Part shown: positions 25,980 through 33,516 of the stretch, in pieces | How the letters are laid out: every line of letters starts with the position of its first letter | How positions within the stretch are numbered: position 1 is the stretch's first letter | Origin: Desulfonatronovibrio sp. | GTDB lineage: Bacteria > Desulfobacterota > Desulfovibrionia > Desulfovibrionales > Desulfonatronovibrionaceae | Assembly (NCBI GenBank): GCA_003566455.1 | Contig: PXDF01000088.1 | Location: 1-33,918 of the forward strand | Length of the DNA stretch: 33,918 nt | Reading direction: 5' to 3' | Notes under the pieces: generated by a model | What the model was told of the DNA's origin: nothing | Database searches by the model: none | What the model saw: the letters and a program-made list of their open reading frames with translations, nothing else | Made by a program: the position numbers and the translations under genes

Positions 25980-26972
25980 ATGAAAAAAGGGAGTTTGATT
26001 TTTTTGCTGGCCGGGTTTCTGGCTGTCTTTTTCTGCATGAGCTTTGAAAAGGCTGACGCTCAAAGAAAAGCTTTTCTCGCCTTTGGTGGAGGCCCGACCG
26101 GTGGAACTTTTAACTATTTTGCCAATGGGATGGCAATATATCTTGGCAGGCATATTCCCAATCTTGATATGTCCTCCGAAGGTTCAGGAGGTTCAGGTGA
26201 AAACTTGAGAAGAATCAACGCCGGGCAGATCGATTACGGCATTGTTTATTCTGGAGATGCTTTCCTTGGCAGACGCGGTGAGTTGCCCAATGATACAACA
26301 AAATATGATAAAGTTATGACAGTAGCTTATCTTTACGGGGCACCAGCCCAATTGGTGGTCAGAGCCGGGGACAACATAACCTCAGCCAAGCAGCTGGCCG
26401 GTAAAAGGGTTGCCGTGGGCAACGCCGGATCCGGGGCCGCTCTTTCAGCTGAAAGATTCTTCAGGCACATCGGGATCTGGGATGAAATGACCCCTCAATT
26501 TCTGGGCTATTCTCCAGCAGCATCAGCCTTCAGAGATGGACACATAGATGCTTTCTGGGTTCTTGTGGGCTATCCCAATGCCTCAGTAATTGAAGCCGCC
26601 ACTCAGAGCAGGATCAGCCTTGTTGATGTTCATAAGGATGCCCTGGAAACCGGCTTTTATGATGAATATCCCTTTTATGCCAAAGTCACCATTCCCGGCG
26701 GAACCTACCGCAATGTGGATAACCCAGTTGACACCTTCCAGGATTCCACTTTCTGGTGCGCCGGATCAGGTGTGGATGAAGATATTGTATATGAATCAGT
26801 CAAAACCATTTTCTCACCTGCAGGACTGCAGCATATGCTCACTGCTCATGGAGCAGCCCGGGAAATGAGCATAGAAAACGGCCTCACCGGAGCATCCGTG
26901 CCTATTCATCCCGGAGCCTATCGCTTCTGGACGGAGCAGGGACTGGATATTCCCGAAGAATTAAAACCATAA
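25980..26972 (+). CDS. TAXI-family TRAP transporter solute-binding protein
   Basis: Periplasmic binding protein of the TAXI type that delivers its ligand to a fused TRAP permease. 330 residues. A signal peptide is clear (KK, hydrophobic 6-22, cleavage near KADA-QRK). Family signatures: GGGPTGGTFNYFANGMA near 37-53, GSGGSGENLRRINAGQIDYGIV near 63-84 (kept short here), GKRVAVGNAGSGA near 140-152 and LGYSPAASAFRDG near 178-190. Ligand unknown; glutamate and 2-oxoglutarate are known for some relatives. TAGGAGGT precedes the ATG. It ends with its own strong terminator before the permease gene. Confidence 0.92.
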   Translation: MKKGSLIFLLAGFLAVFFCMSFEKADAQRKAFLAFGGGPTGGTFNYFANGMAIYLGRHIPNLDMSSEGSGGSGENLRRINAGQIDYGIVYSGDAFLGRRGELPNDTTKYDKVMTVAYLYGAPAQLVVRAGDNITSAKQLAGKRVAVGNAGSGAALSAERFFRHIGIWDEMTPQFLGYSPAASAFRDGHIDAFWVLVGYPNASVIEAATQSRISLVDVHKDALETGFYDEYPFYAKVTIPGGTYRNVDNPVDTFQDSTFWCAGSGVDEDIVYESVKTIFSPAGLQHMLTAHGAAREMSIENGLTGASVPIHPGAYRFWTEQGLDIPEELKP

Positions 26973-26981
26973 TATCTGATT

Positions 26982-27020
26982 GGAGAACCGGATTTAAAAT
27001 CCGGTTCTCCTTTTTTTTTT
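26982..27020 (+). terminator. Strong Rho-independent terminator after the TAXI gene
   Basis: Perfect inverted repeat GGAGAACCGGATTT / AAATCCGGTTCTCC followed by ten Ts, nine bases after the stop. Readthrough to the permease gene would be partial at best. Confidence 0.92.
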
Positions 27021-27268
27021 GGAATTTTTATTGTTGAACATCTGGCTGGTAGTTCCTTTGAAACCTTTTAGTCACTTGAAACCAAGCCTGATGAACTTCT
27101 TATTTCTTCCCTGGATATCATTTTTTTCCTGATATTTTTTTGGATACATGAAGTCCTTCACAAAAAATAACCCGCTGAATCATTCCCGCTTGAGGGGTGT
27201 ATCATCACCTGTTAAATAATTTTTTTGATCTTAATGAACAAATTTCAAACAAAATGGTGGTAAAATAG

Positions 27269-29227
27269 ATGGTTGAGAAGGATCAGATTAAAGTCGAAGA
27301 AAGTGAAGAGCTGAAAAAAATCCAGGCCAAGGAATCCAAGTTCGGCCGGAGACTTTCTCCTTTCTGGTTTACTGTTGTTTCCCTGCTCGGTGCAGCAATG
27401 GTCTTTTTTTACATGTACTCAGCTGGAGTTCAGCCATTCAATGATCAGTATCACCGTGGCGCTTATGTGCTACTGACCTATGTAATGATCTTTATTTCTT
27501 TCCCATTCTGGTCCAGATCCAGCCATAAAAGACCAACAATCGTTGACATAATCCTGGCCATGGCCTCAATTTTCGTGGTGGGCTACTGGATCACGGAATT
27601 CGAGAATCTCAATTACCGGATGGGAGCGGAAACCCAGATGGATATCTGGATCAGCATTGTGGGAATCATCCTTTCCCTGGAAGTAAGCCGGAGAGTGCTG
27701 GGCTGGTCAATCACTATTGTGGGAGCGGCCTTTCTTATCTTTGGTTATTTTGGGCCATACATGCCGGGACCTATCGCTCACAGAGGATTTGACGTCGAAA
27801 GGCTGGCCAGTTTTATTTTTCTTACCCAGGACGGCGTATTTGGAGTGATGTGCAACGTTCTGGTTACCTATGTCATCATATTTATTTTCTTTGGCTCTTT
27901 TTTGCAGCAATCAGGTGTAGGCAGGTTTTTTATTGACTGGCCCATGGCTCTGGCCGGCAAAAGCCTTGGGGGTCCGGCCAAGGTTTCCGTTGTTGCCTCT
28001 GGATTTTTTGGTTCAGTATCAGGCTCTGCCATTGCCAATACAGTATCAACAGGATCATTTACCATCCCTTTGATGAAAAGAGCCGGTTTCCGGCCACATG
28101 TGGCCGGAGCCATTGAACCTGCCGCGTCCATCGGAGGCATGTTCATGCCCCCCATTATGGGGGCGGGCGGCTTTTTAATGGCTGAAATGACCAACACGCC
28201 CTACGTTCATATCATGGCCATTGCTGTATTCCCGGCTCTGCTATATTTTCTTTCGGTTTTTGTCATGATCCACTTTGAGGCCAAAAAGCTCAATATCCGT
28301 GGTCTGGATCTGGAGGGACAGCCAAGGGCCAGGGAAGTGTTCAAGCAGCATTGGTTCAAGGCCATGCCTCTGGTAATTATAGTTCTTATGATGCTTTTTG
28401 GCTATTCTCCTGGTATGGCCGCTTTCTGGGCCACCTTGTCCTGTGTCGTTATCAGCTGGGTTGACAAGGAGTACAGGATGGGGCCCAAGGAAGTCTGGAG
28501 GGCAATGGTTGTCGGCTCGCGCAATACCCTGGTTATCGGGGCTACTGTGGGTGTAATTGGAATAATTGTGGGCACCATTTCCCTGACCGGGATTGGGCTG
28601 AAATTTTCCGATCTGATTATATCTTTTTCCGGTGGCAATCTCCTGTTAGCAATCATTCTGATCGCAGTGGCCTCTCTTGCCCTGGGCATGGGCGTTCCAG
28701 TAACAGCCTCCTATCTGATTGTGGCTGTTTTGGCTGTTCCGGCCCTGCATGAACTTGGTGTGAGCCTGATAGCAGCCCATATGATAGTTTACTGGTTCAG
28801 CCAGAATTCAAACGTAACTCCTCCGGTCTGCGTGGCTGCCTATGCAGGAGCTGCCATTGCCGGGTCAGATCCCTGGAAAACAGGATGGACAGCTCTGAAA
28901 TTTTCTAAACTCATATATGTGGTCCCTTTTTTGTTCGCTTATGAACCAGCCATGGTTCTTGACGCAAGCATTCAGGAAATCGCCATGGTCTATTTTGCCG
29001 CCACTATCGGGACCATTGCTTTTTCCGCGTGGTCCATGTTTTACCTGTTGCGAAAAACAACAATTGTTGAATGGGTGATCTTTGGTGCTGGAACATACCT
29101 GTGCTTCAGTCCTGACCTTGTTAAAGACTTTATAGGGATAAGTCTTGTGGGGCTGGTTCTCCTTAATCAATATAGAAAAAACAAGAGAGATCAGAAAAGG
29201 CTTTCCCCCCTTATACCGCCGGCATGA
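27269..29227 (+). CDS. TRAP transporter fused permease (4TM/12TM)
   Basis: Inner-membrane permease in which the small (DctQ-like) and large (DctM-like) parts are one chain, 652 residues, as in TAXI systems. A polar N-terminal 30 residues are followed by about 16-17 hydrophobic segments. Landmarks: GFFGSVSGSAIANTVSTGSF near 245-265 and MFMPPIMGAGGFLMAEM near 292-308 (conserved DctM loops), and ALGMGVPVTASYLIVA near 475-490. The uptake is driven by sodium or proton gradient (known for the family). It starts 249 bases after the TAXI terminator and thus may have its own promoter; GGTGGT precedes the ATG by nine bases. Confidence 0.92.
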   Translation: MVEKDQIKVEESEELKKIQAKESKFGRRLSPFWFTVVSLLGAAMVFFYMYSAGVQPFNDQYHRGAYVLLTYVMIFISFPFWSRSSHKRPTIVDIILAMASIFVVGYWITEFENLNYRMGAETQMDIWISIVGIILSLEVSRRVLGWSITIVGAAFLIFGYFGPYMPGPIAHRGFDVERLASFIFLTQDGVFGVMCNVLVTYVIIFIFFGSFLQQSGVGRFFIDWPMALAGKSLGGPAKVSVVASGFFGSVSGSAIANTVSTGSFTIPLMKRAGFRPHVAGAIEPAASIGGMFMPPIMGAGGFLMAEMTNTPYVHIMAIAVFPALLYFLSVFVMIHFEAKKLNIRGLDLEGQPRAREVFKQHWFKAMPLVIIVLMMLFGYSPGMAAFWATLSCVVISWVDKEYRMGPKEVWRAMVVGSRNTLVIGATVGVIGIIVGTISLTGIGLKFSDLIISFSGGNLLLAIILIAVASLALGMGVPVTASYLIVAVLAVPALHELGVSLIAAHMIVYWFSQNSNVTPPVCVAAYAGAAIAGSDPWKTGWTALKFSKLIYVVPFLFAYEPAMVLDASIQEIAMVYFAATIGTIAFSAWSMFYLLRKTTIVEWVIFGAGTYLCFSPDLVKDFIGISLVGLVLLNQYRKNKRDQKRLSPLIPPA

Positions 29228-29365: not shown

Positions 29366-30415
29366 ATGATTGCTTACACCATATATTTGCCTCAAATCAA
29401 AGGACTTTTGAAAAAGTGGGCCCTTGAACTCAATATCTATGTGCCCACCATGGTTGAAAAAGGATTTTTCGAATTTCGTCCCTGGAATGACCAGGTTGAA
29501 ATCGCCTGGGATTATGATCTTTGTTATACCACTTTGAAAAAATTCATCTTGCCTCCCAGGGAAAATATCATCTTTTTTGACATGAAAAAATATTCAGCCA
29601 GTCCGGTGACAGAGGCTCCAAAACAGCTTCTGTTCGGGGTGCATCCATATGACATAAAGGCCATCAACCAGCTGGACCAGCTGATGGAAATGGACAGTCC
29701 TGATGTAAATTACCAGGCCAGAAGGGATAACACCATTATTTTCGGTCTGGAACCTGTCCACGTTGCTGAAACCGCTTTCTGGTCAAGCATGAACGCTTCC
29801 AAGGTAGACCTTGGCTATGATCTGTACTGGACCAGAATAAGCCCGGGTGCTTTTTTTGTTCAGGTGGGTTCAGCCAGGGGTGAAGAAATGCTGAAGGTGG
29901 AAGGTCCTGTGGAAAAATCCAACTTTACCCAGAAAGAAGCCGCCAGAAGGGCTCATCTCAAGATCCTGGCTGAAGCTGAAAAACAGACCTTGAAATTTGA
30001 CTGGAGCAGAACTCCGGAACTGGTGAACAAGTTTTTCAACAACCGGACATTCTGGAGGGAAAAAGCCAAAACCTGCCTTTCCTGCGGCTCTTGCAACCTG
30101 GTCTGTCCCACCTGCTACTGTTTTGACATTCAGGAAGAAGCGGATGACCTGCTTCAAAAAGGAAGGCGATACAGGCAATGGGACGGCTGTATGCTTAGAG
30201 GATTTGCAGAAATAGCAGGAGGACACAACTTCAGGGATAATGCCTGGGAAAGGTACAGGCACAGGTATATGCGCAAGGGAAAGTATATTTTTGATAAACT
30301 GGGCGAGCTTGGATGCATTGGGTGTGGAAGATGCGTCAAAGCCTGTACCGCAGGCATAGCCAACCCCAGGAAAGTATATAATGAAATCTGGGAGGCCATA
30401 AAGAATGAAATCTGA
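29366..30415 (+). CDS. hydB: Sulfhydrogenase-type hydrogenase beta subunit (Fe-S)
   Basis: Electron-transfer subunit of a cytoplasmic four-part [NiFe] hydrogenase of the HydBGDA (group 3b-like) type. 349 residues. Two [4Fe-4S] sites: Cys237, 240, 243, 247 (CLSCGSCNLVCPTC) and Cys317, 320, 323, 327 (CIGCGRCVKACTAG). The N-terminal 230 residues match the sulfhydrogenase beta domain pattern (FGVHPYDIKAINQLDQ). GGAG lies five bases before the ATG; a weak TTGAAT/TGTTAA pair (29322-29350) may be the promoter. Overlaps the next gene by 11 bases. The role is to join the FAD/NAD subunit to the small subunit. Confidence 0.88.
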   Translation: MIAYTIYLPQIKGLLKKWALELNIYVPTMVEKGFFEFRPWNDQVEIAWDYDLCYTTLKKFILPPRENIIFFDMKKYSASPVTEAPKQLLFGVHPYDIKAINQLDQLMEMDSPDVNYQARRDNTIIFGLEPVHVAETAFWSSMNASKVDLGYDLYWTRISPGAFFVQVGSARGEEMLKVEGPVEKSNFTQKEAARRAHLKILAEAEKQTLKFDWSRTPELVNKFFNNRTFWREKAKTCLSCGSCNLVCPTCYCFDIQEEADDLLQKGRRYRQWDGCMLRGFAEIAGGHNFRDNAWERYRHRYMRKGKYIFDKLGELGCIGCGRCVKACTAGIANPRKVYNEIWEAIKNEI

Positions 30416-31235
30416 TTTTTCTCCTTATGTGCCCAGATCGGCAACTCTAGTGTCAAAGCAAGAACTCAATGAGCTGGTGACATTGTTTGAATTCGCTCAG
30501 GACAGCGGCAAGCCCCTGGCTCACAGGCCAGGTCAGTTCATCCAGGTATCGGTTTATGGAGTCGGAGAAGCCCCTTTTTCAGTAAGTTCGCCGCCCAGAA
30601 CTGATCATAACAACTTTGAACTGGCGGTACGCAGGACAGGTTCTGTAACCAACGCGCTGCACGCGCTGGAAGTCGGCGCCAAGATAGGGATAAGGGGGCC
30701 ATACGGGTCATATTTTCCCATGCAGAAATTTGTTGGTCAGGATTTTCTTTTTGTGGCCGGCGGCCTCGGGTATATTCCCATAAGAAGCGTCCTGCATTAT
30801 ATGCTCAGACACAGGGATGAATTTGGACATATTACCCTTTTAGTAGGGACAAGAAATCCCAAAGAAAGAATATTCACTGACCAGCTGGCGGAAATAAGTA
30901 AGAGAAATGATCTTGAAGTCCTGGAAACCGTGGATACTCCGGACCATGGCTGGAAGGGAAATGTGGGGGTTATCACCACCCTTTTCCCCAAAATAAGCAT
31001 TAACCCCGAAACCACCAATGTGGCCACCATTGGACCGCCAGTGATGTACAGGTTCGTTATTCAGGAGTGCAGCAAGCTGGGCATACCCCAAAACAGGATA
31101 TTCGTGTCACTGGAAAGACGCATGAAATGCGGTCTTGGCAAATGCGGCCATTGCCAGATCAATGGCCTGAACTGCTGTTTGGATGGCCCTGTTTTCTGCT
31201 ATACTGACATAGCCGGACTTGGGGAAGCCCTTTAA
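30405..31235 (+). CDS. hydG: Hydrogenase gamma subunit, FAD/NAD(P)-binding reductase
   Basis: Flavoprotein that exchanges electrons with NAD(P)H. 276 residues. FAD site RPGQFIQVSV and GEAPFSVSS near 41-62; nucleotide-binding AGGLGYIPIRS near 118-128; C-terminal [2Fe-2S] loop with Cys242, 247, 250 and 257 or 258, followed by DGPVF. This is the PyrK/HydG layout. Overlaps hydB by 11 bases. It is separated from the small subunit by 112 bases filled with an octamer repeat array. Confidence 0.88.
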   Translation: MKSDFSPYVPRSATLVSKQELNELVTLFEFAQDSGKPLAHRPGQFIQVSVYGVGEAPFSVSSPPRTDHNNFELAVRRTGSVTNALHALEVGAKIGIRGPYGSYFPMQKFVGQDFLFVAGGLGYIPIRSVLHYMLRHRDEFGHITLLVGTRNPKERIFTDQLAEISKRNDLEVLETVDTPDHGWKGNVGVITTLFPKISINPETTNVATIGPPVMYRFVIQECSKLGIPQNRIFVSLERRMKCGLGKCGHCQINGLNCCLDGPVFCYTDIAGLGEAL

Positions 31236-31264
31236 TTCATAACTCAGTGACAATAGTTTCTACA

Positions 31265-31336
31265 CTGACCAGGTGATTCACCGATTCACTGACTAACTGA
31301 TTCACTGATTTACCGATTCACTGATTCACTGACTCA
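31265..31336. repeat. Octamer tandem array 1 (nine CTGATTCA-type units)
   Basis: Nine octamers in strict register: CTGACCAG, GTGATTCA, CCGATTCA, CTGACTAA, CTGATTCA, CTGATTTA, CCGATTCA, CTGATTCA, CTGACTCA. The last unit ends where the ribosome site of the small-subunit gene begins (AAGGAGG, 31336-31342). The same octamers make the longer array after the large-subunit gene. Confidence 0.95.
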
Positions 31337-31347
31337 AGGAGGCGGAA

Positions 31348-32088
31348 ATGCCCAATAAACCAAAAGTCGCTTTTTTTGATTTCGCAGGATGCGAAGGTGA
31401 TCAGCTTCAGGTGGCCAACCTTGAGGAAAGGCTTCTTGATCTTGTATCACATCTGGAAATTGTAAGATTTCGCGAAATCAAGACCATAAAGCAGGACAAT
31501 TATGATATAGCATTTGTTGAAGGATCCATCACCAGGCCTGAAGACGAACCCAGAATCAAAGAAATCAGAAGCAACGCCAAAATTCTTGTGGCCCTTGGTG
31601 CCTGCGCCACCATAGGCGGCATCAACTGCTTGAAAAACTTCATTAAGGAATCTGAATACAAGGCTACTGTTTACGGCAATTTTGGAAGATGGTATTCTAC
31701 TTACGCTGCCAGACCTCTGTCCGCGATTGTCAAAGTGGATATGGAAATACACGGGTGCCCCATTGACAGAAATGAATTTGCCAGGGCTGTAAAAGAGCTG
31801 CTTCTGGGCAAGATTTATTCCCCGCCTGACTATCCTGTATGCGTTGAATGTAAAATGGCAGGAAACATATGCAGATACGAGCAGGGCAAGCTCTGCCTTG
31901 GTATTGTGACCAGAGCGGGCTGTAACGCGTGTTGCGTTACTGAAGGCAGTGTCTGCTGGGGATGCCGCGGTCTGGCCCCTGACGCAAATATGGATGCCGC
32001 GGGACAGATAATGGATGAACATGGTTTTTCCTGGCTGGAAGCCCAGGATCACCTTAGACTGTATTTTGGATACAATAGCAGACTTTAA
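31348..32088 (+). CDS. hydD: [NiFe] hydrogenase small subunit with Asp at a proximal-cluster site
   Basis: Small (electron-relay) subunit, 246 residues, cytoplasmic (no Tat signal). It aligns by eye with HydD of sulfhydrogenases (AFVEGSI, LGACATIGG, HGCPID). The proximal [4Fe-4S] ligands expected are four cysteines; here Cys15, Cys86 and Cys137 are present but the second site, normally CxGC, reads CEGD: Asp18 (codon GAT). Cysteines 165, 168, 175, 183, 192, 195/196, 203 and 206 supply two further clusters. Asp as a proximal ligand is known in actinobacterial-type group 1h enzymes. The start is fixed by AAGGAGG, and it lies directly after the octamer array. Confidence 0.88.
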   Translation: MPNKPKVAFFDFAGCEGDQLQVANLEERLLDLVSHLEIVRFREIKTIKQDNYDIAFVEGSITRPEDEPRIKEIRSNAKILVALGACATIGGINCLKNFIKESEYKATVYGNFGRWYSTYAARPLSAIVKVDMEIHGCPIDRNEFARAVKELLLGKIYSPPDYPVCVECKMAGNICRYEQGKLCLGIVTRAGCNACCVTEGSVCWGCRGLAPDANMDAAGQIMDEHGFSWLEAQDHLRLYFGYNSRL

Positions 32089-32115
32089 TTCTGCCAGGGA
32101 ATTCCCGGAGACACT

Positions 32116-33516
32116 ATGACTATGGAAAAAGTTAAAGAACGGAAAAAAGAACAAAGTTCTAAAAAAATCTTGTCGCCTGATCCAGCTGGACCAAGAACTC
32201 TTGAAGTCAAACATCTGACCAGAGTGGAGGGGCATGGGAATATTATTGTGAAACTTGATTCTGGCAATCGGGTTCAGGACTGTCAATGGCAAGTGGTTGA
32301 AGCTCCGAGATTTTTTGAAGCCATGGTTCAGGGCAGACCTTATGAAGACATTCATCATATTGTTTCAAGAATCTGCGGTATTTGTTCCATAGGGCACCAG
32401 CTTTGTTCCATTCAGGCCACAGAAGATGCTTTTGGACTCAATGTCTCAGAGCAGACCCTTGATTTGAGAAAGCTTGCCCTGCATGCTGAAAATCTACAAA
32501 GCCATCTTTTGCATATCGGTTACCTTGTTCTTCCTGACCTTCTGGGTGTAGACTCTGTCCTTCCGCTGGCTCAAACCCATAAGGATGAACTTGTGAATCT
32601 GGTGGCATGCAGACGTATATCAAATGAATTCAGCCGCCTGATCTGCGGGCGGACCACTCATCCCCAGAGACTGATTCCCGGGGGCATGGAAAAATTTCCT
32701 GCACCTCAGGAACTGGTTGAATTAAAATCCATGCTTGAAGAAAGCCTGGGCCGGATGGCTAAAATAGTGGATCTTTTCACTGCCCTGGCTGATAAGTGGC
32801 CTGTTTTCAGAAGGCCTACAGAATATGTGGCCCTGGTTTCCCCATCAGAATATGCCCTGTATTCAGGGGAAATCGGCAGTTCAAAGGATATCAACAGACC
32901 AGCCGCGCTATATCAGCAGATCACCAATGAATACTGTGTTCCTCAGTCCACAGCCAAATGGACAAAAAATACAGAAAATTCCTATATGGTTGGGGCCTTG
33001 GCCAGATTCAACCTTAATCACAAGCTTTTGAGTCCAGAGGCTCAAAAGGCTGCGCTCAAGCTGAGTCTTAAGGCCCCTGAATACAATCCATACCTCAATA
33101 CAGTTGCTCAGCTTGTAGAATGTGTCCATTCAGCTCAAGACTCTCTGGACATTATTTCCGGACTTCTCAGCCGTGGTCTTAAACATGAGAAGCCAGCCCC
33201 GATAAAAATAAAGGCCGGAAAGGGAGTAGGCGCGGTTGAAGTACCCAGAGGCCTGCTTATCCACAATTATGAATACAATGACCTGGGAAGAATCGTTTCA
33301 GCTGATTGCGTTATCCCCACCAACCAGAATCACGGTAATATACAGATGGATATGGATGCTATAAAGCCTCTTCTCTCAGGACTTGATCCGGAGGCCATCG
33401 AACTCAAACTGAGTATGCTGGTTCGTGGTTATGATCCGTGCATATCCTGCTCCACCCATCTGATTGATGTGACCGGTACACCTGAGGAGAGTCTGGTCAA
33501 ATTCGTCCGGGTATAA
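32116..33516 (+). CDS. hydA: [NiFe] hydrogenase large (catalytic) subunit
   Basis: Catalytic subunit holding the NiFe(CN)2CO site, 466 residues. The N-terminal motif RVEGHGN and L1 SRICGICSIGH (Cys87, Cys90, His94) and the C-terminal L2 DPCISCSTH (Cys442, Cys445, His448) give all four Ni ligands. The 18 residues after His448 should be removed by a maturation protease, which is not in the window. Sequence type is group 3, so coupling to NAD(P) is inferred from HydG. GGAG lies five bases before the ATG, with a second in-frame ATG at 32122 also usable. It follows the small subunit by 27 bases. Confidence 0.92.
   Translation: MTMEKVKERKKEQSSKKILSPDPAGPRTLEVKHLTRVEGHGNIIVKLDSGNRVQDCQWQVVEAPRFFEAMVQGRPYEDIHHIVSRICGICSIGHQLCSIQATEDAFGLNVSEQTLDLRKLALHAENLQSHLLHIGYLVLPDLLGVDSVLPLAQTHKDELVNLVACRRISNEFSRLICGRTTHPQRLIPGGMEKFPAPQELVELKSMLEESLGRMAKIVDLFTALADKWPVFRRPTEYVALVSPSEYALYSGEIGSSKDINRPAALYQQITNEYCVPQSTAKWTKNTENSYMVGALARFNLNHKLLSPEAQKAALKLSLKAPEYNPYLNTVAQLVECVHSAQDSLDIISGLLSRGLKHEKPAPIKIKAGKGVGAVEVPRGLLIHNYEYNDLGRIVSADCVIPTNQNHGNIQMDMDAIKPLLSGLDPEAIELKLSMLVRGYDPCISCSTHLIDVTGTPEESLVKFVRV

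Follow-up and report, generated by a model that had tools for sequence, protein, structure and literature searches.

The hydBGDA operon

The window, that is, the whole stretch of 33,918 nucleotides of DNA from Desulfonatronovibrio, a sulfate reducer, that was analyzed, carries four genes arranged head to tail (29366-33516) in the order hydB-hydG-hydD-hydA, which is that of the sulfhydrogenase-type (group 3b) [NiFe] hydrogenases. The genes and the evidence for each are:

29366..30415, + strand: hydB, Fe-S beta subunit, AsrA-like (open reading frame; Pfam/NCBIfam; syntenic in relatives)
30405..31235, + strand: hydG, FAD/NAD(P)-binding gamma subunit, AsrB-like (open reading frame; Pfam/NCBIfam; syntenic in relatives)
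31348..32088, + strand: hydD, [NiFe] hydrogenase small (delta) subunit with Asp18 (open reading frame; Pfam/NCBIfam; PDB sequence and fold)
32116..33516, + strand: hydA, [NiFe] large (alpha) subunit (open reading frame; Pfam/NCBIfam; PDB match)

Regarding the individual subunits, all four (beta, gamma, delta and alpha) are recognized by sulfhydrogenase models. NCBIfam and Pfam describe HydB as a 4Fe-4S beta subunit; HydG has the domains of a group 3b gamma subunit (Pfam NAD_binding_1, FAD_binding_6 and DHODB_Fe-S_bind), and HydA contains both CxxC motifs of a large subunit, its Ni-site sequences RICGICSIGH and DPCISCSTH being intact. As for HydD, a protein of 246 amino acids, its best Pfam family is Oxidored_q6 and its best NCBIfam model sulfhyd_HydD; it scores 168.6 bits with the NCBIfam HydD model NF040836 (cut-off 500) and 140.8 bits with the ShyD model NF040831 (cut-off 460), and judged by these scores it is a relative, and not a member, of these narrow equivalogs. 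The unreached cut-offs count against a group 3b-like assignment, a label that rests on the operon and on the nearest structures. The score with the FrhG family (59.6 bits, cut-off 245.5) places HydD outside the group 3a Frh enzymes.

The best PDB match of both HydD and HydA is soluble hydrogenase I (SHI) of Pyrococcus furiosus, which is thus their closest relative of known structure. The AlphaFold model of HydD (pLDDT 84.5) superposes on the SHI delta subunit with a Z score of 27.8 and an rmsd of 2.3 over 241 residues at 38% identity; it also matches MvhG, FrhG and the group 1 small subunits. When the N-terminal 211 amino acids of HydD were searched against the PDB, group 3 enzymes ranked first, and the group 1h small subunit 5aa5 was absent from the 15 matches with E up to 10.

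The arrangement is shared by the relatives: hydA lies 3' of hydD at every HydD locus of the species-genome scan described below, and hydB and hydG lie 5' of it, the exceptions being two Cys-type loci (L097 and L106) and contigs that start late. In a genome of the same genus (G001), the genes 3' of hydA resemble, by eye, one for cobalamin biosynthesis, one for an AsnC-type regulator and one for proline catabolism, so that hydA has no maturation genes next to it there. Directly 5' of hydB, also by eye, the window has a TAXI-type TRAP binding protein and a fused TRAP permease (25980-29227), and a TRAP permease precedes hydB in G001 as well. The gap between hydG and hydD holds a tandem array (31274-31336) of about 7.9 copies of the 8-base unit TGATTCAC, which ends just 5' of the apparent ribosome-binding site of hydD. 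Finally, the genome of the window encodes a second [NiFe] hydrogenase on another contig (L112 on C70), whose small subunit has the all-cysteine motif SSCGGC and is part of one 637-codon open frame with two CRP-like cyclic-nucleotide-binding domains (by eye); its large-subunit gene lies 3' of the fused frame.

The small subunit and its Asp18 motif

The features of HydD that concern its clusters are the following:

31390..31401, + strand: C15-E-G-D18 motif, TGC GAA GGT GAT (read directly; the Asp column is that of FrhG Asp60)
31603..31605, + strand: Cys86, third proximal-cluster ligand (invariant among the homologues compared)
31756..31758, + strand: Cys137, fourth proximal-cluster ligand (invariant among the homologues compared)
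31840..31965, + strand: C-terminal segment with Cys 165, 168, 175, 183, 192, 196, 203 and 206 (all eight invariant)

The first-pass annotation had pointed to an aspartate in place of the second cysteine of the proximal cluster, and the gene agrees with it: the translation reads GCEGDQ, Cys15 (TGC, 31390-31392) is in place, codon 18 is GAT (31399-31401), and Cys86 and Cys137 are intact. Its description of the CxxC pair as universal was too broad, since hydrogenase small subunits with CxxD exist (FrhG and group 1h). The alignment of Asp-type with Cys-type HydD revealed no cysteine that replaces the lost second ligand; Cys94, near Cys86, was considered as a compensating residue and rejected, being Cys, Ser or Ala in the Asp-types and also Cys in many Cys-types. 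The eight C-terminal cysteines are invariant in Asp-types and Cys-types alike and, by analogy with SHI, probably bind another two [4Fe-4S] clusters. In the same segment, an additional cysteine adjoins an invariant cluster ligand (Cys195-Cys196, 31930-31935, in GCxxCC); it occurs in 44 of 68 Asp-types and in one of 20 close Cys-types.

Conservation of Asp18

At the level of the order, 101 genomes from the same genus, family and order as the window were compared: the window protein and each of the 19 other orthologues, with identities of 65-90%, read CEGD, and the more distant small subunits examined in those genomes have CxGC. The nearest named relatives of HydD belong to Desulfonatronovibrio bins (90%). 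Beyond the order, a scan of species genomes gave 80 HydD relatives; outside Desulfobacterota it was a single pattern-based scan that started from the window protein and is biased to near relatives. These 80 together with the Desulfobacterota matches, after removal of duplicates and of sequences below 33% identity, form a HydD-type set of 116, with Asp in 73 and Cys in 43, a ratio that is no census because one of the six scan patterns, FFDFAGCE, ends at the motif. The column aligned with the second proximal cysteine is thus Asp throughout the clade, as the first-pass annotation had proposed to check by aligning homologues.

Within the HydD-type set, Asp is encoded by GAC in 48 cases and by GAT in 24, so that it is the residue that is kept and not the codon. 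Regarding selection, comparison with three sequences of the same genus gave NG86 dN/dS of about 0.03-0.07 (dN 0.06-0.07; dS 0.84-2.4, near saturation in the two comparisons with the higher values), and no stop codons were found; hydD is maintained by purifying selection and is no decaying gene.

Evolution of the Asp branch

A tree of 76 HydD sequences, calculated with columns 13-24 left out, places all 41 Asp sequences in one branch together with a single Cys sequence, L056; the support of this branch is moderate (88/91). The Asp/Cys label requires two changes on the tree, where shuffled labels need 25 on average, and the placement of all Asp sequences in one clade is not rejected (p-AU 0.38). 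L056 fits either a sister to the gain of Asp or a reversion. The trait therefore probably had one origin in this HydD branch, followed by inheritance or transfer between bacteria and archaea.

The taxa of the branch are Desulfovibrionales, another Desulfobacterota genus, Bathyarchaeota, an Asgard archaeon, Thermoplasmata, Bipolaricaulota, a Phycisphaerae, an Aerophobetes and a deltaproteobacterium filed under Myxococcota; many of them are metagenome bins from a scan seeded with the window protein, and lone odd placements are to be taken with care. The close Cys-types are mainly from Chloroflexota and other Desulfobacterota. The Bipolaricaulota proteins (L092, L093, L094, L095, L103 and L104) have an insertion of about 24 residues in the C-terminal cluster region, between the first and the later cysteines, read directly in L092 and from HSP lengths in the others.

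The large subunit next to the proximal cluster

In HydA, 14 positions separate the Asp from the Cys sets, and six of them fall within residues 173-188, in the stretch SRLICGRTTHPQRLIP. Alignments identify His182 of this stretch, by homology, as the histidine that faces the cluster; in Hyd-5 the corresponding conserved histidine points at the proximal cluster (PMC3940037). Most Cys-type relatives differ from the Asp-types in this segment, and L056 keeps RTTHPQR.

A large-subunit residue that would pair with Asp18 was sought and each candidate was discarded: L056, a Cys-type, keeps T180, Q184 and R185; L100, also a Cys-type, keeps R185; L070, an Asp-type, is without Q184 and P188; and the matching residue is absent in FrhA of the Asp-type Frh. 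A strict coupling between HydA and Asp18 is unsupported because L056, L100 and L070 break the pattern, and from the alignments the difference between the sets at 173-188 may reflect shared ancestry only.

Probable ligation and possible role of Asp18

Taken together, the product of hydBGDA is very probably a functional [NiFe] hydrogenase, cytoplasmic, NAD(P)-linked and group 3b-like, with a proximal [4Fe-4S] cluster held by Cys15, Asp18, Cys86 and Cys137. Electrons would pass, in either direction, between the NiFe site in HydA and NAD(P)H by way of the proximal cluster, the pair of C-terminal clusters in HydD, the HydB clusters and the HydG flavin. As judged from sequence, Asp18 is most likely the fourth iron ligand of the working cluster, because its column matches that of FrhG and of group 1h, because the C81D variant of the Alteromonas macleodii hydrogenase, changed at the second proximal cysteine, is active (PMC4070099), and because no substitute cysteine is present. 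The FrhG chain of Methanothermobacter marburgensis reads GCTGD in its PDB sequence, and Asp60 was placed as a ligand of the proximal cluster and later had clear cryo-EM density (PMC3591093, PMC3930138). The first-pass annotation did not know such a ligand as a feature of sulfhydrogenase-like group 3 enzymes; Asp60 of this group 3a enzyme shows that it is not new to group 3.

As for what the carboxylate does, it could, speculatively, tune the potential to a modest extent or couple electron with proton transfer, and a modest effect of either kind is plausible. In other proteins, the ferredoxin of P. furiosus shifts from about -350 to -397 mV upon the D14C change (PMC8097209), and replacement of a Glu ligand in Nfn uncouples the two electron branches (PMC9503767); given these two results, an Asp ligand carries no predicted direction of change. 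In its fullest form, the proposal would be that Asp acts as a redox-tuning or proton-coupling switch that sets direction or potential, was fixed once in the sulfhydrogenase branch and then spread among bacteria and archaea, converges with Frh and group 1h, and is accommodated by RTTHPQR next to His182; as a whole this is advanced only tentatively and should be regarded as doubtful.

It may instead be that Asp is near-neutral: either residue would serve as ligand, Asp became fixed a single time by chance, and it was retained because the pocket had by then adapted to it. This is a possibility to be taken seriously even if we would not expect it to hold. Frh enzymes have either Cys or Asp, as do close HydD relatives that share the operon, and the potential of the ferredoxin moves only moderately with D14C; against this, the branch includes both bacteria and archaea and keeps Asp strictly, L056 being at most a single possible reversion.

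That Asp18 is not permanently bound, the cluster being [3Fe-4S], or [4Fe-4S] in which the fourth iron is labile or water serves as ligand, in a redox-dependent form, is unlikely. The introduction of PMC4070099 describes an Asp-ligated Pyrococcus ferredoxin whose iron is labile, and [3Fe-4S] clusters that result from some artificial changes of Cys to Asp, which counts against stable ligation by Asp; on the other side stand Asp60 of FrhG, bound with clear density in the identical column, and the retained activity of the A. macleodii C81D enzyme.

An adaptation to oxygen, as proposed for group 1h, is very improbable. CxxD is shared with group 1h, where the insensitivity to O2 has been partly ascribed to this motif, and the first-pass annotation had raised the link; it finds no support here, since Frh of Methanothermobacter, a strict anaerobe, has the identical ligand. 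The bias toward H2 production that the first-pass annotation named besides oxygen tolerance is likewise unsupported. The organism of the window and most hosts of Asp-type enzymes belong to anaerobic lineages, and oxygen tolerance is for this reason a weaker reading than a modest redox or proton-coupling effect; from its recurrence in anaerobic lineages it can be argued that CxxD alone is no signature of oxygen tolerance. Finally, an error in the GAT codon or a decaying gene, which the first-pass annotation had named together with all-Cys nearest homologues as grounds for doubt, has a negligible chance: the window does come from a 245-contig assembly, but Asp recurs in all orthologues of the order across separately assembled genomes, its codons GAC and GAT both occur, dN/dS is low and the operon is intact.

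Comparison with known hydrogenases

Asp18 as the probable fourth ligand of the proximal cluster sets HydD apart from its nearest structural relative: SHI, the group 3b sulfhydrogenase of P. furiosus (PDB 9nez, 9e1j and 9e15), has the all-cysteine motif CYGCQ, whereas HydD has CEGDQ. Frh of M. marburgensis (group 3a; PDB 3zfs, 4ci0 and 4omf) has CxxD in a column identical to that of HydD, but its partner is the F420-binding FrhB, while those of HydD are HydB and HydG. FrhG of Methanosarcina and of Methanothermococcus has Cys in the column of Asp60, and Frh therefore has the same Asp/Cys split as HydD. The group 1h small subunit 5aa5 (HofK) reads GCDGDS, with CxxD at the proximal site as in HydD, and ligation by three Cys and one Asp has been described for this group (PMC8498564); the group 1h enzyme is, however, a two-subunit group 1 hydrogenase, and that of the window is encoded by the four genes hydBGDA. 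These comparisons of FrhG, FrhA and the group 1h/Huc chains were made on PDB sequences. Besides, Yonemoto et al. list a Cys-to-Asp change at the second proximal position for G. metalloreducens (PMC4070099).

Asp at the proximal cluster is hence known from group 3a Frh and from group 1h. No earlier report of it in group 3b was found in the open-access literature, with search wording that may have missed some, and as far as this literature goes it is new that a whole clade of sulfhydrogenase-type enzymes has the swap as its trait; these enzymes join the hydrogenases with Asp at this cluster, with a swap that is fixed across many phyla. The role of non-cysteine ligands in Fe-S enzymes in general has been described as poorly understood (PMC9503767). 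In this respect, the close Cys-type relatives (from Chloroflexota and other Desulfobacterota, L056 and L100 included) differ from the window protein in having CEGC instead of CEGD, with HydD 47-61% identical, the same operon in nearly all and the same remaining cluster cysteines; Asp-types and close Cys-types with the same operon are thus natural matched pairs for the effect of a carboxylate near the NiFe site.
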